A stretch of 64,000 nt of DNA, taken from Nitrososphaerota archaeon (GTDB lineage Archaea > Thermoproteota > Nitrososphaeria > Nitrososphaerales > JACQRY01). Position 1 is the first letter of the stretch. Each line of letters starts with the position of its first letter. Below, piece by piece: positions 2,938 to 9,191 of the stretch. The notes below the pieces were generated by a model. It searched no databases. It was not told the origin of the DNA and saw only the letters and a list, made by a program, of their open reading frames with translations. The position numbers and the translations under genes are program-made. The stretch covers positions 1 through 64,000 of the forward strand of contig JACPCU010000012.1 of assembly GCA_016184315.1 (NCBI GenBank), read 5' to 3'.

Positions 2938-5811
2938 TTGACAGAACACCGCAAAGACATCTTTTCATCCTTCACCAAACCCATTCAAAGAGCCCTAAAA
3001 GAACGAGGCTTCACCACCCCAACACAACCCCAAACAGCAGCCATACCCCACATAACCCAAAACAAAAACATCCTCCTAATCGCACCCACAGGAACAGGCA
3101 AAACCGAAGCAGCCATCCTTCCCGTACTAAACGCCCTACAAACCATGACCGACAAACCCAGAGGCATCAAAGTCCTCTACATAACCCCACTAAGAGCCCT
3201 GAACAGAGACCTCCTCGAAAGACTGCAATGGTGGTGCAAAATCCTCGACATAAGACTAGCAGTAAGACACGGCGACACCGAAACAGCCGAAAGAGGCAAG
3301 CAGGCCCTCGCACCACCAGACATCCTGATCACCACCCCTGAAACACTGCAAGCCATCCTTCCCGGCAAAGTAATGAAGAAACATCTCAGCGAAGTAAGAT
3401 GGATCGTAGTCGACGAAGTCCACGAACTAGCAGGCGAAAAGAGGGGCAGCCAACTCTCCCTAGCCTTAGAGCGCCTCCGCCTACTAACACAAAGAGAGTT
3501 TCAAATCATAGGGCTGTCAGCCACCATAGGCACGCCTGAAAGAGTAGCCAGCTTCCTCGTAGGCGAAGGTAGACCATGCGAAGTCATCGATGTCGCAGTC
3601 CACAGACAGGTCGAACTAGAAGTTGTATACCCAAGGGCTTCCGTAGAAGACCTCGAGCTAGCTTCAAAGCTTTACACTCACCCTGAAGCCGCTGCAAGGC
3701 TGAACCTCATCAAGAAGACGGTAGAAAACCATAGATCTAGCTTAGTCTTCACCAACACCAGGTCTGAAGCTGAGATCTTAGCCAACCGGTTCCGCCTTCT
3801 AGACATGAATTATCCGCTCGGGATTCACCACGGCTCTCTATCCAAGACCTCCCGCATCGCCACTGAAAGAGGCTTAAAAGAAGGCAGACTGTCAAGCATC
3901 ATCTGCACCAGCAGCCTTGAACTAGGCATAGACATCGGTCAACTGGATCTTGTGATACAGTATAATTCACCTAGACAGGTGACCCGCCTACTCCAACGCG
4001 TGGGCAGAAGCGGCCATAAGATCGGCGGAGTCTCAAAGGGCGTCATCATCACCCAAGACTCGGATGACGCTTTGGAGTCGATGGTTATCGGGCGCAGAGC
4101 CTTAGTGGGGCTCCTAGAACCCGTTGACATGCCTGATAAGCCCTACGAGCCTTTGGTGCACCAGATGGTAGGTCTGCTTCTCCAAAAGGCCCGTTGGTAT
4201 GTTGAAGAGGCGTTGGAGTTGTTCGCAAAGGCGTATCCGTATCGCAGCCTTGTGGAGGAGGATTTGGAGAAGGTTTTGAAGTATATGCATGAGCGTTACC
4301 CTCGGCTATCATGGTATTCCTCCAAGGACAGTATCTTCACTAGGCCTCAGAATATTTCAGCATTCTACGACTATTATTTCGGGAATCTCAGTATGATTCC
4401 AGATGAGAAACAGTTCGTTGTCCTAGCTGAGGATAATGTGCCTGTAGGCGTCTTGGATGAAGCGTTCGTAGCTGAGCACGGGGAAATCGGCACCAAGTTT
4501 GTGGAAGCAGGCTTGGTCTGGGGAGTGAAACAGATCTATAACGACAGGATATACGTGAAGAGAGAAGAAGACCCAGTAGGAGCGATTCCCACTTGGGTTG
4601 GGGAAGAAATACCAGTCCCCCTCGAAGTTGCCATGGAAGTAGGCTCCATCAGGAGGATTGCGGAAGAACGGTTGAAACAAGGCGCCCCTCTAGAGGAAGT
4701 TGCAGCCGAGCTGTCGAAGCAATATCCTGCGTCAGCAGAGACCGCCGCAAGAGCGCTCTCGGAGGTTAAGGAGCATGTTGAGAAAGGAATACCTGTGGCT
4801 ACGGATAGGCGTGCGACCATAGAGCAGTGGCGAGACTACACCATAATCAGCTGCTACTTCGGCCACCTCGTCAACAGAACTTTGTCGAGGCTTCTTGGCC
4901 ATATGCTCTCAGAGAAGAAGGGTGAGGCTGTAGGCGTGCATCAGGACCAGTACAGGGTGATGTTGAACATCGTTGAACCTGTCGAGGAGATCAGAGGCTT
5001 GTTGGCCAAGCTTGCTAAGGAAAACCTCAGCGAAGCTATGGTTCCCTCGATGGCCAACACAGGCATGTTCAGACGGCGATTCCTCCACGTTGCAAAGAAG
5101 TTCGGGGTCATCGAAAAGGACGCTGACCTAAGTAGCTCTAGACTGAGCGACTTGATCAAGAGTCTCAGAGACACAGCTGTGTTCGAAGAAGCTGTGAAGA
5201 CGACGCTACTTAGAGATGTTGACATGCAGGGCACCAAGAAGGTTCTTGACAGCATAGCTTCAGGCGAAATCCAAATAGAGCTCTTACGAAGATCTGAAGA
5301 ACTGTCACCTATTGCCCGCGTCGGCATGGAGGAGCTCGGACGAAAAGCGGACCTTGTTCCCCCTGAGAAAATGAAAAGGATCCTAGTGCAGTCTGCCAAG
5401 GCTAGACTACTCAACGAGTCCAAGACCTTCGTCTGCGTGGGTTGTTGGAACTACTTGGAGAACAAGAGGGTTGCTTCTTTCCAAGATCCTATGTGCCCTC
5501 TATGTAGCTCTCGGAGAATCGGATTTGTTGACGAAGCTGAGGAAACAATATGGAGACTATGTGATGCCGTGAAGAGCAATAAGGGACAAGAGTTAGCTAA
5601 GCGTTACAGAAGGCTTCACAGAAGACTTTTGAGGACAGCTGAACTGGTTGAGAAGAATGGGTTCGCAGCTGTTGTGGCACTTGTCGGAAGAGGAATAACT
5701 CCATCCGAAGCCGCTTCGTTTCTGGGTGGTGACAAGCAGTTGAGCGACGAACTAGTTGAACGAGTGTTGGAGACTGAGAAAAAGATCTTGAGGAGGCGTT
5801 ACTTCGCCTGA
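2938..5811 (+). CDS. lhr: Lhr-family DEAD/DEAH-box superfamily 2 helicase
   Basis: 957 aa (TTG start); LLIAPTGTGKTEAAILP, VVDEVHELAGEKRG, QRVGRSGHK; C-terminal CVGCW...CPLC zinc-binding motif. Confidence 0.93.
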   Translation: MTEHRKDIFSSFTKPIQRALKERGFTTPTQPQTAAIPHITQNKNILLIAPTGTGKTEAAILPVLNALQTMTDKPRGIKVLYITPLRALNRDLLERLQWWCKILDIRLAVRHGDTETAERGKQALAPPDILITTPETLQAILPGKVMKKHLSEVRWIVVDEVHELAGEKRGSQLSLALERLRLLTQREFQIIGLSATIGTPERVASFLVGEGRPCEVIDVAVHRQVELEVVYPRASVEDLELASKLYTHPEAAARLNLIKKTVENHRSSLVFTNTRSEAEILANRFRLLDMNYPLGIHHGSLSKTSRIATERGLKEGRLSSIICTSSLELGIDIGQLDLVIQYNSPRQVTRLLQRVGRSGHKIGGVSKGVIITQDSDDALESMVIGRRALVGLLEPVDMPDKPYEPLVHQMVGLLLQKARWYVEEALELFAKAYPYRSLVEEDLEKVLKYMHERYPRLSWYSSKDSIFTRPQNISAFYDYYFGNLSMIPDEKQFVVLAEDNVPVGVLDEAFVAEHGEIGTKFVEAGLVWGVKQIYNDRIYVKREEDPVGAIPTWVGEEIPVPLEVAMEVGSIRRIAEERLKQGAPLEEVAAELSKQYPASAETAARALSEVKEHVEKGIPVATDRRATIEQWRDYTIISCYFGHLVNRTLSRLLGHMLSEKKGEAVGVHQDQYRVMLNIVEPVEEIRGLLAKLAKENLSEAMVPSMANTGMFRRRFLHVAKKFGVIEKDADLSSSRLSDLIKSLRDTAVFEEAVKTTLLRDVDMQGTKKVLDSIASGEIQIELLRRSEELSPIARVGMEELGRKADLVPPEKMKRILVQSAKARLLNESKTFVCVGCWNYLENKRVASFQDPMCPLCSSRRIGFVDEAEETIWRLCDAVKSNKGQELAKRYRRLHRRLLRTAELVEKNGFAAVVALVGRGITPSEAASFLGGDKQLSDELVERVLETEKKILRRRYFA

Positions 5812-6395
5812 GCCTCTTCCTGTTGCTGCCCAGTAGACGTAGAGAGCAGTACAGTCATCAACGCTTTCTGATCTATTTCCGCTCTGGTTCTCCAGCCTAT
5901 TGAGAGCACATCTTCTCCGCTCTGGATCAAGTAGCCAAGCCTGATGAATCTGTCCAGTGTCAGATCAATCCGCCATTTAGGAAACTTGTCTTTCAGAATC
6001 TGCTCGACATCTTTTCTCGAAACTTTGCCATGTCTGGAAACCGTATATGCCACTGTAGCCGCCAGAATCGACAAATCATCTATCCTCCAACCACCGTTCA
6101 ACAGTTCTGCCACAGGAGGGGGATACCTCATGACGACGAAGAACCTTGCCTTATCATAATCATCAGAGGACTCTCCTTCCTCTCCAACGATCTTAACATC
6201 CAAGTCAAGCCTATCCAGCTCCTGTTTCAACAAGTCAACGATCCTCACATAGTCTTTACCAAGGCTCTTCTTCAACTCCCATCCCTTCACTCCAGGTGAA
6301 CGGGGTCTCTGCAAAAGCAGTAGCTGCGCAGCCCTGCGAACCTTTCTCTGAACTTCTGCCTCCTCCGCCAAGCCTACTTCAACCTCTTCCTCCAC
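5799..6395 (-). CDS. Putative KITE (tandem winged-helix SMC partner; ScpB/Nse3-MAGE-like)
   Basis: 198 aa, two wHTH-like segments (RAAQLLLLQRPRSPGVKGWELKKSL...; ILAATVAYTVSRHGKVSRKDVEQILKDKF...DRFIRLGYLIQSGED); in an overlapping operon with SMC and a kleisin-like gene. Confidence 0.55.
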   Translation of the reverse strand: MEEEVEVGLAEEAEVQRKVRRAAQLLLLQRPRSPGVKGWELKKSLGKDYVRIVDLLKQELDRLDLDVKIVGEEGESSDDYDKARFFVVMRYPPPVAELLNGGWRIDDLSILAATVAYTVSRHGKVSRKDVEQILKDKFPKWRIDLTLDRFIRLGYLIQSGEDVLSIGWRTRAEIDQKALMTVLLSTSTGQQQEEAQAK

Positions 6396-7159
6396 TCATC
6401 GTAGCTGAGACGCGTCGCCACAGAGCGAGGCTGACCAACTCCCACACCGCTCCTTAGCACCGTCAGCCAAGTCCTCTCCTCTAAGGAATCCACGTGCAGA
6501 GCTAATCTACCCTCTGAAACCAAGAAACTTGTAACATAAGCTCTGATAACAGTGTCAGCAAAACTGTCCACGCAAATGAAGTCCCAGTAATCAATCTTGC
6601 CCTCCCCAGCTGTTCTGACTCTGGCTTCCTCTAACAGTTCTTGCAGCTTGGCTTCAAACTCCTGTTCCGCCAAGACTTGAAGCTTCAACAGGTCTTTGAG
6701 AGTCAAGGCTCCACCGGGAGCAGCTTCAGGAACTCCTAGGTCAACTTGCCTCTGGCTTAGAGGGAGAAGCCCGTTCCAATAATCTACAGCCTGCTTTAGC
6801 CCATCCGGGAAGATCTGGTTTAGATGCACTATAGGATGGATGCTCTCCGCAAGGTCATTAGCTAAGTCATCGACGCTGCTCAACCTGATCTTGAGCTCCA
6901 CCAGTACAGGGTCTATGTAGAGAGCTGACGCTCGGCGCTTCAACCATTCGCCTTGAAGCCTAACGATGCTTGAAAGAGCGTTAAGAGCCTCCGAGTCGAG
7001 GAGTAACTCATCCAGCAGCTTCCAGTCAGGTAGATGAGTCTTCAAAGTGTTGAGGGATGCCTCAATATCAACTTGGAAAGGATCTACTCCTCTTGCTCCA
7101 ACAACTCTGCATAGATCTATGACGCGCATCAGCTCATCTAGAGCTATTTTACTTGGCAC
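6374..7159 (-). CDS. Putative kleisin (ScpA/Nse4-like)
   Basis: 261 aa; N-terminal GVDPFQVDIEASLNTL...LLDSEALNALSSIVRLQGEWLKRRA resembles ScpA 'DPWDIDI...LLxAAxLLxLKS'; overlaps both neighbours. Confidence 0.5.
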   Translation of the reverse strand: MPSKIALDELMRVIDLCRVVGARGVDPFQVDIEASLNTLKTHLPDWKLLDELLLDSEALNALSSIVRLQGEWLKRRASALYIDPVLVELKIRLSSVDDLANDLAESIHPIVHLNQIFPDGLKQAVDYWNGLLPLSQRQVDLGVPEAAPGGALTLKDLLKLQVLAEQEFEAKLQELLEEARVRTAGEGKIDYWDFICVDSFADTVIRAYVTSFLVSEGRLALHVDSLEERTWLTVLRSGVGVGQPRSVATRLSYDEWRKRLK

Positions 7160-9191
7160 TCTTCACACCTTCAACTTGCGAGATACTCTGCGTGTTCTGC
7201 ACGAAGATCAGGTTGACATCTTTCTCTAGAACTGTGAGCTGGCTGGGAGTAATCACGACGTACTGGCCTGTGCCTTCCTTAGCCATCTCGGAGAACAGGA
7301 TCTTGAGCATGGATTCACGGTTCCTAGGATCCATATGCACATCAAACTCGTCTATGGCTCTGAATGGTGAAAGGATCCTGTTCTGAAGAGACAGTAGGAA
7401 TGCCATTATGGAGACGCTTCTCTCTCCTCCGCTCTGAGTGTAAGCATCTAGCACAGTAGGAACAGCACCTCTGAACCCCATGAGAAGCTCCAGCCCCGCT
7501 TCCTCAACATCCTCCATGTCTGTGAGCCTGACTGTGCCTGTAGCTGAGACCTCTGAAAGGATTCTTTGGTAGACTGGTGTAACTTCTTCCACTAAGATTC
7601 TCAGAGTCTCCTTCCAAATCCTCTTTCTTTCCTCCACCTCCTTCAGGACTAGCGCCTTATTTTCTCTGACCAGTTTCAGCTTCTCCTCTAGCTCCTTATG
7701 CAGGTTGGAGTAGTTGGTGTAAATGGTTTCAGCCTCTTTAGGTACATCACCCAAGCTGCCAAGCTGTACATTCACGATCTTCAAATCGTCCGCGACTTCA
7801 GTAGGAGCTCTCTCAGTTTCAGCCCGTTCTCCGTCGGGCTTCTGCTGCAACAACTGTCTGCGCTCTTCTTCGGTGTCGCTGATGCTCTTCTTGACCTCTG
7901 AGACCTCCCGTTCAAGATTCCGTTTCTGATAGTTGAGGAGAGCCTCACTCACCTTCAAGTCGACATGCTTTCCTATTAAGCGCGTCAAATCTTCCTCAAC
8001 TTTGCCTATCTCACTGTGAACATCCTTGACCTCTTTTGCCAAGTCCTTGGATTTCCGTTGACCCTCCTCAGCTTTGGAAGAGTAGTCTTTCACCATGTAG
8101 CGCAGAGTGTCAAGATGTTCCCTCAACTGGAGTGCGTCTGGGCTCCTGCCTTCACCTATCTTCGAAAGTAATCCTTCGACCTTGGTGAGCCGCTCTTCAA
8201 CCGCATGGGAGACGCCTGACAAAGTCTTCTGAGACACTTCTCCCTCAGCAATTCCTTTCTCAAGCCTAGCCAAAGTGAAGTAGAATTTTCTGAGCTCCGT
8301 TCTACTGGCAGAGAGCTGACTCCAAGCGTCCTCAACACTTTGGGAAGTCTTCTTCAGCCTCTCAACAGTGTTCTGCAACACCTGCTCCCTAGACTGAAGC
8401 TTCTCCTTGCTTGCCTCCAGATTTTTTTCGAGGCGAGCGACTTGACTCCAGAAGAGCTCTTTTTCAAGCAGATGTTTCCTCTCTAGTAGGTTCTTCTTCT
8501 GGAGAAACCTGTTGTAGACGCCCTGCCAGTACTCGAGGGTCTGACTCGCACTCTCCATCAACTGGAGAGTGGAGGTTTCCTCACCCACCAATCCTTCAAG
8601 TCTTCGCTGGGCCTCCATCAGATTCTCCCGGTACCTGCTGAAGCCCACTGACTCTTCGACCATGACCAGCTTTTCTTGTGGTGTGGTAACGCTGAACTCC
8701 TCAACCATTCCCTGATGCATGATGATCAGCGGGTTATCCGGGTTGAGTCCTAGCTGATCAAGCAGTCTACCGACCTCCGTCTTGCTGATCTCCTTGAAGT
8801 CTCCTTCATACCAGTAGGAACCGTCCTTCTTCAAGTAGCGCGAGAGCATGAATGTGTCAGACCGGCTGAAGGGCACAGGTTTCCTGCCTCCTTCCCGAGG
8901 AGAATTATCGAAGACTAGGGAGACCCTGGCCAGATCCTTCCCTCGCCTAATCAAGTCACTGAGTTTCCTTGAGCGCTCGGTGTAGGTTTGCCCCAAAGCT
9001 ACCGAGATCGCTAGTAGAATAGAGGACTTACCGGCGCCGTTAGGTCCACAGATCACGTTGAGCCCTGACTCCAAAGGGATACGGCTATACTCGTGGCTCA
9101 TGAAGTTCTCTAGAATCATTTCTTTTACTACGGATTGTTTCACGGCTCCGCCTTTGACACTGTGGGCAGATGCCTTCTCTAAGCCGCTCAA
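7149..9191 (-). CDS. Short SMC-family ATPase with Smc5/6-like head
   Basis: 680 aa; LENFMSHEYSRIPLESGLNVICGPNGAGKSSIL (Walker A), LIIMHQG (Q-loop region), TQSGGERSVSIMAFLLSLQ (signature), SPFRAIDEFDVHMDPRNRESML (Walker B); long heptad region between. Confidence 0.88.
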   Translation of the reverse strand: MSGLEKASAHSVKGGAVKQSVVKEMILENFMSHEYSRIPLESGLNVICGPNGAGKSSILLAISVALGQTYTERSRKLSDLIRRGKDLARVSLVFDNSPREGGRKPVPFSRSDTFMLSRYLKKDGSYWYEGDFKEISKTEVGRLLDQLGLNPDNPLIIMHQGMVEEFSVTTPQEKLVMVEESVGFSRYRENLMEAQRRLEGLVGEETSTLQLMESASQTLEYWQGVYNRFLQKKNLLERKHLLEKELFWSQVARLEKNLEASKEKLQSREQVLQNTVERLKKTSQSVEDAWSQLSASRTELRKFYFTLARLEKGIAEGEVSQKTLSGVSHAVEERLTKVEGLLSKIGEGRSPDALQLREHLDTLRYMVKDYSSKAEEGQRKSKDLAKEVKDVHSEIGKVEEDLTRLIGKHVDLKVSEALLNYQKRNLEREVSEVKKSISDTEEERRQLLQQKPDGERAETERAPTEVADDLKIVNVQLGSLGDVPKEAETIYTNYSNLHKELEEKLKLVRENKALVLKEVEERKRIWKETLRILVEEVTPVYQRILSEVSATGTVRLTDMEDVEEAGLELLMGFRGAVPTVLDAYTQSGGERSVSIMAFLLSLQNRILSPFRAIDEFDVHMDPRNRESMLKILFSEMAKEGTGQYVVITPSQLTVLEKDVNLIFVQNTQSISQVEGVKSAK

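Follow-up and report, generated by a model that had tools for sequence, protein, structure and literature searches.

An archaeal SMC-kleisin-KITE operon with a hinge-less ATPase and probable common ancestry with the eukaryotic Smc5/6 core

Of the three eukaryotic SMC complexes, Smc5/6 is the one understood least, and in the literature searched its archaeal record consists of an ATPase relative only. Does an archaeal operon in which an SMC-family ATPase stands beside two small genes encode a relative of the Smc5/6 core as a whole? The window analysed here, a stretch of 64,000 nt, comes from contig JACPCU010000012.1 of a Nitrososphaerota archaeon (GCA_016184315.1; genome 92% complete). According to the ORF list it harbours three overlapping genes on the minus strand at positions 5799-9191: a gene for a 680-aa SMC-family ATPase (7149..9191), a gene for a 261-aa protein (6374..7159), which shares 11 nt with the ATPase gene, and a gene for a 198-aa protein (5799..6395), which shares 22 nt with the second. 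An earlier note on this DNA had read them as a candidate minimal Smc5/6-like complex, and its coordinates, strand and overlaps agree with the ORF list. These are not chance ORFs, since family members align over their full length with 19-60% identity and share invariant motifs. Scanning the operon with promoter and terminator models of the bacterial type yielded nothing usable.

The likeness of the ATPase to Smc6, which the earlier note had based on the motifs at the C-terminus, proved to be far beyond chance. The quoted motifs are present, and DEFDVHMD was found in 56 of 57 aligned family members, the remaining one having DEYDVHMD. In a single-sequence phmmer search of the PDB, yeast Smc5 was the top match (E 4e-34). 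Human Smc5 and yeast Smc6 came next, and the heads of archaeal and bacterial SMC, Smc1-3 and Rad50 ranked below. A profile built from the 57 members gave the same picture, with 230 bits for Smc6, 221 for Smc5, 192 for an archaeal SMC head, 166 for Smc2, 139 for Smc3, 116 for Smc4 and 51 for Rad50. As a specificity control we used the N-terminal half of the canonical hinged SMC of the same genome (L003). It retrieved archaeal and bacterial SMC proteins and Smc1-4, and no Smc5/6 match at E<=1e-5. The switch position after the D-loop reads T-P in all 57 members as well as in the four Smc5/6 proteins examined (4/4), while Smc2 and canonical SMC show SL, SH or TF and the Rad50-like proteins, where readable, TH or SH.

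For the head tree (36 taxa, 352 columns), the ATPase family was combined with head sequences taken from PDB chains (yeast and human Smc5 and Smc6, and two Smc2) as well as with eight archaeal SMCs of the canonical kind and seven proteins resembling Rad50. The split between the group of ATPase family, Smc5 and Smc6 and the group of canonical SMC, Smc2 and Rad50 received an SH-aLRT of 99.2 and a UFBoot of 100. The AU test rejected the grouping of the ATPase with canonical SMC (p 0.009) and with Rad50 (p 0.011), in line with the clustering of the heads with Smc5/6 that the earlier note had named as support; the SH test alone did not reject these alternatives (p 0.09-0.10). Within the Smc5/6 group, the positions as sister to Smc5+Smc6 (AU 0.59), joined to Smc6 (0.49) and joined to Smc5 (0.34) were not told apart. 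The tree contains few eukaryotic sequences (those of yeast and human Smc5/6 and the two Smc2) and long branches. The heads of this ATPase thus group with the Smc5/6 clade. At E<=1e-30 just one member of the ATPase family was found in the genome of origin (92% complete), and thus no second SMC of the Smc5/6 type.

The first reading of the sequence had not included one feature of the ATPase, its missing hinge. Members of the family have 572-683 aa, about half the length of a canonical SMC. In the AlphaFold2 model (mean pLDDT 85), the N-terminal half of the head (residues 22-182; 8646..9128, minus strand) is followed by a coiled-coil hairpin (residues 185-546; 7554..8639, minus strand), in which a helix of residues 185-345 leads into a turn of five residues (346-350; ~8142-8156, minus strand) and the return helix starts at residue 351; model and alignment place the C-terminal half of the head at residues 550-676 (7164..7544, minus strand). 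The Walker A motif GPNGAGKS lies in the invariant G49-S56 region (~9024-9047), and the ABC signature SGGE (7422-7433), the Walker B/D-loop DEFDVHMD (7329-7352) and the switch TP (7245-7250) follow in the C-terminal half, all on the minus strand. The two termini are thus predicted to form a complete head of the ABC type. At the apex of the arms, in contrast, no hinge dimerisation domain was found. The Pfam model SMC_hinge matched the canonical SMC of the same genome, and it matched neither the ATPase of the window nor two short relatives. The alignment columns near the apex are occupied to about 20% and unconserved among the 57 members, none of which (0/57) carries the CxxC of a zinc hook. The arms comprise ~135-195 residues, corresponding to ~20-29 nm. 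It is in this hinge-less build that the family departs most strongly from all SMC-kleisin complexes known to us.

A longer relative of the ATPase, with 1067 aa, long arms and a CxxC in mid-protein (RCDKCG) resembling a zinc hook, was seen in a genome labelled Bathyarchaeota (L085, 1657-4860). The tree places it within the family, though weakly supported, and kleisin and KITE genes are absent beside it. We considered it as an exception to the operon rule and rejected this, since the same genome holds the usual short ATPase side by side with a kleisin; the long protein is therefore a second copy.

Searches of the PDB with the single sequences of the two smaller proteins gave nothing significant, and for this reason family profiles were used for both. 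The profile of the 261-aa protein found yeast Nse4 first (1.9e-5) and human EID3, a member of the Nse4 family, next (7e-5), and after these the N- and C-terminal domains of ScpA (E 0.03-0.04). Pfam Nse4_C matched 30 of the 57 family members (best E 5.6e-9), and the Pfam models of ScpA and Rad21 were not among the matches of the 57. In the protein of the window, the Nse4_C-like part, a C-terminal winged helix of the cap-binding kind, covers residues 189-229 (6473..6595, minus strand; PF08743, 1.7e-4), and an N-terminal helical part of the neck-binding kind is suggested for residues ~4-75 (6935..7150, minus strand) by a weak profile match to the N-terminal domain of ScpA (6ivh, E 0.028). The assignment as a kleisin made in the earlier note thus stands, while its ScpA type does not: the protein is nearer to Nse4. 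We regard it as a putative Nse4-type kleisin, in which the C-terminal winged helix is Nse4-like and the N-terminal part is more weakly supported.

The third protein had been taken for a tandem winged-helix KITE, and the modelling bears this out. The AlphaFold2 model (pLDDT 90) shows two winged helices, and Foldseek against the PDB placed Nse1 and Nse3 structures at all of the ranks 1-4 (E 1e-5 to 4e-5), with MukE, JetB and ScpB among those ranking below. The matches of the family profile were weak, and the top three all belonged to KITE-family proteins of Smc5/6 (MAGE/Nse3 0.06; Nse1 0.15 and 0.18). A RING domain was not detected by Pfam in this 198-aa protein, and in the model helices alone follow the second winged helix. 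The protein is therefore predicted to have the tandem winged-helix fold of the Nse1/Nse3 type.

The three genes are genetically linked. Related loci were collected with exact-peptide seeds, which may miss distant members, and the best 80 of 126 loci were evaluated, none of them labelled Asgard. ATPase, kleisin and KITE genes were found together in 69 of these 80, so that the operon is conserved, and nine of the 11 loci without the full trio end at a contig end. In one of the others (L038), no kleisin or KITE gene lies beside the ATPase gene, and a kleisin is encoded on another contig of the same genome; the remaining one is the locus of the long second copy (L085). When 400 genomes of the phylum were searched, kleisin and ATPase were each found in 159 and both in 156, with three genomes having the kleisin alone and three the ATPase alone, so that 156 of the 162 positive genomes have both. 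In one family of the same order, kleisin and ATPase are both absent from 20 of the 20 listed genomes, all of them 99% complete. There are also a few families with kleisin and KITE genes apart from the ATPase gene, all three still being present. The distribution is broad, comprising about half of the genera sampled and loci labelled Thermofilaceae and Thermoproteales. Outside the phylum, the kleisin was found in 22/28 genomes from the phylum that includes a record labelled Hadesarchaea, and in 2/99 from the phylum of one labelled Halobacteriales.

Downstream of the operon, an Lhr-type DEAD-box helicase (2938..5811, plus strand; Pfam DEAD, DEAD_assoc and WH_Lhr) is convergent with the KITE gene, with an overlap of 13 nt. 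It is a neighbour and not a subunit. Among the loci from the best 80 of 126, 57 extend at least 2 kb beyond the KITE gene, and 31 of these have such a helicase there, directly convergent in 16; a eukaryote-type topoisomerase IB lies upstream and divergent from the operon in 11 (e.g. L025, 4188-5726); and a conserved protein of ~230 aa without Pfam match, usually divergent upstream, was found in 24 (e.g. L035, 1318-2007). Housekeeping genes are also among the recurrent neighbours in this set, and no recurrent nuclease was seen there. Several of the topoisomerase IB loci are labelled Methanomethylicota or relatives.

All three subunits are homologous to components of the Smc5/6 core (Smc5, Smc6, Nse4, Nse1 and Nse3) and are encoded by linked genes. 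Since each of them finds its Smc5/6 counterpart first, and since the genes are linked and co-occur, we consider it highly probable, from sequences and structure models, that the operon encodes an ancient archaeal SMC-kleisin-KITE complex of common ancestry with the Smc5-Smc6-Nse4-Nse1/Nse3 core. What is common to both is the sequence of the head with its motifs, the Nse4-like C-terminus of the kleisin and the Nse1/Nse3-like KITE. In contrast to Smc5/6, the archaeal operon has one ATPase gene instead of two and one KITE gene instead of two, the arms are far shorter, the hinge is absent and so is the RING on the KITE. The designation as a minimal Smc5/6-like complex in the earlier note is thus justified in respect of homology to the core, but the features that define Smc5/6 are not all present, with one SMC gene, no hinge and no RING. 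We place the operon among the SMC-kleisin-KITE systems, as a hinge-less variant from archaea and not as a full Smc5/6 complex. A search of the genome of origin with PF11789 (Nse2/Mms21 SP-RING) gave no match, and no control gave one either.

Could the resemblance to Smc5/6 be an artefact of long branches or of convergence, so that the operon would represent an independent archaeal SMC-kleisin-KITE lineage? Smc5/6 and the ATPase family are both divergent and on long branches, and the SH test left the alternative grouping at p 0.09. An artefact of this kind, which we think improbable, would have to account for the first rank of an Smc5/6 counterpart with each of three unrelated subunits and for the motif states common to the ATPase family and Smc5/6; moreover, a larger published analysis joined an archaeal SMC5/6-related clade with Smc5/6 at a bootstrap of 100 (PMC9389158). 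It is even less credible that the ATPase is a Rad50- or RecN-like repair protein with two unrelated neighbours. Rad50 models do match the head weakly and the short, hinge-less arms are reminiscent of RecN-type proteins, but the AU test rejected the grouping with Rad50 (p 0.011), the profile scored Rad50 at ~51 bits versus 230 for Smc6, and the near-perfect co-occurrence of kleisin and KITE with the ATPase argues against unrelated neighbours.

Two further alternatives accept the trio and assign it differently. One is a role in defence, as in Wadjet (JetABCD) or Lamassu systems, since JetABC likewise consists of SMC, kleisin and KITE, the PADLOC profiles LmuB, mad3 and JetC match the ATPase, and the operon has PIN-type genes and a CRISPR array at a distance of less than 9 kb. 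We judge this unlikely. The PADLOC matches concern the generic ATPase alone, with none for kleisin and KITE, Nse1/Nse3 rank above JetB in Foldseek, the recurrent neighbours in the ~80 loci (best 80 of 126) are the Lhr helicase, topoisomerase IB and housekeeping genes rather than a dedicated nuclease, and presence in about half of the genera sampled is unlike that of a defence island. There is also hardly any reason to believe that the canonical hinged SMC, and not the adjacent ATPase, is the partner of kleisin and KITE. The genome of origin (92% complete; G000, L114) encodes such an SMC (contig C30), which lacks a recognised kleisin because no ScpA match was found in this genome. Yet seven of 25 genomes possess kleisin and operon ATPase without a match to a hinge SMC, and four of the 25 a hinge SMC without the kleisin; we therefore assign kleisin and KITE to the operon ATPase.

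Other known systems differ from the operon in composition or build. The SMC-kleisin(-KITE) layout is common to Smc-ScpA(B) of bacteria and archaea, whose canonical SMC, unlike the operon ATPase, has ~1200 aa and a hinge. A survey of 2020 concluded that a KITE is absent from archaeal Smc complexes, and smc, scpA and scpB from Crenarchaeota (PMC7055376); the operon, in contrast, includes a KITE and occurs in the loci labelled Thermofilaceae and Thermoproteales, and thus it qualifies the general view of that survey. MukBEF, MksBEFG and Wadjet JetABCD agree with it in their SMC-kleisin-KITE composition, but its kleisin and KITE match Nse4 and Nse1/3 before MukF and MukE, and a JetD-like nuclease was not seen. 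The compact archaeal SMC-related ATPases ASRP/coalescin (ClsN) and arcadin-4 are similar in size to the operon ATPase. According to PMC9389158, ASRPs carry a zinc hook, whereas the 57 operon ATPases have no CxxC, and the match to the ASRP model reached 46 bits versus a cut-off of 300.

The operon ATPase most likely belongs to the archaeal SMC clade, described as SMC5/6-related, that groups with Smc5/6 in the larger analysis (Yoshinaga et al. 2022, PMC9389158), which cites Yoshinaga and Inagaki 2021 for it; in the 2022 paper the word kleisin does not occur, and its main text gives no architecture for the clade. The novelty seen in the earlier note in the Smc5/6-like signature thus falls away, the clade being described already, and that of the combination with the partners holds; therefore the novelty lies in the partners and in the hinge-less build. 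In the literature searched, with preprints and most subscription papers outside its range, neither Nse4- nor Nse1/3-like partners from archaea, nor the architecture of this ATPase, were found to be described.

For the predicted SMC-kleisin-KITE complex, we infer physical assembly, a clamp mechanism and a biological role. Two identical ATPases would engage their heads on ATP, and a single kleisin could bridge them asymmetrically, with the N-terminal helices bound to one neck and the C-terminal winged helix to the opposite cap. KITE subunits on the middle of the kleisin may press DNA onto the engaged heads, as in the clamp of Smc5/6, and ATP hydrolysis would drive repeated capture and release of DNA, serving chromosome maintenance or repair. 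The function would then be DNA clamping or loop capture. Because neither hinge nor zinc hook was found and the arms have ~135-195 residues, a ring could not be closed at the far end in a known way. Instead, we expect DNA to be clamped by heads, kleisin and KITE, with the arms paired laterally or through a minimal contact at the apex, rather than to be enclosed in a long hinge-closed ring. It is tempting to speculate, at somewhat less than even chances, that a pre-eukaryotic Smc5/6 core exists across Thermoproteota, is the sole SMC-kleisin complex in some lineages and acts as a hinge-free clamp close to the heads, its far end being open or arm-paired.

If so, a hinge-closed ring would not be needed for all SMC-kleisin functions, and eukaryotic Smc5/6 would gain a direct archaeal counterpart. 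That an archaeal relative stands in a conserved operon next to a kleisin like Nse4 and a KITE like Nse1/3 suggests a core assembly older than the eukaryotes. Archaea could now be used to study where Smc5/6 comes from and how it works, and the three-gene, hinge-less version offers a small system in which to find out what parts an SMC machine requires to capture DNA or extrude loops.

The window contains further elements on the far side of the Lhr helicase gene. Low-complexity ORFs, rich in proline/threonine or glycine, overlap each other at 2622-2968 just upstream of this gene. At 1032-1693 and 2093-2347, a PIN-domain-like ORF is preceded by an antitoxin-like ORF, which by eye resembles a VapBC arrangement, and another antitoxin-like ORF lies close by. 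The first kilobase is occupied by a CRISPR array (49-954) with 14 copies of the 30-nt repeat GTTTCAATAGAACTATAGTAGGATTGAAAG at a spacing of 66-68 nt, the last copy being degenerate.
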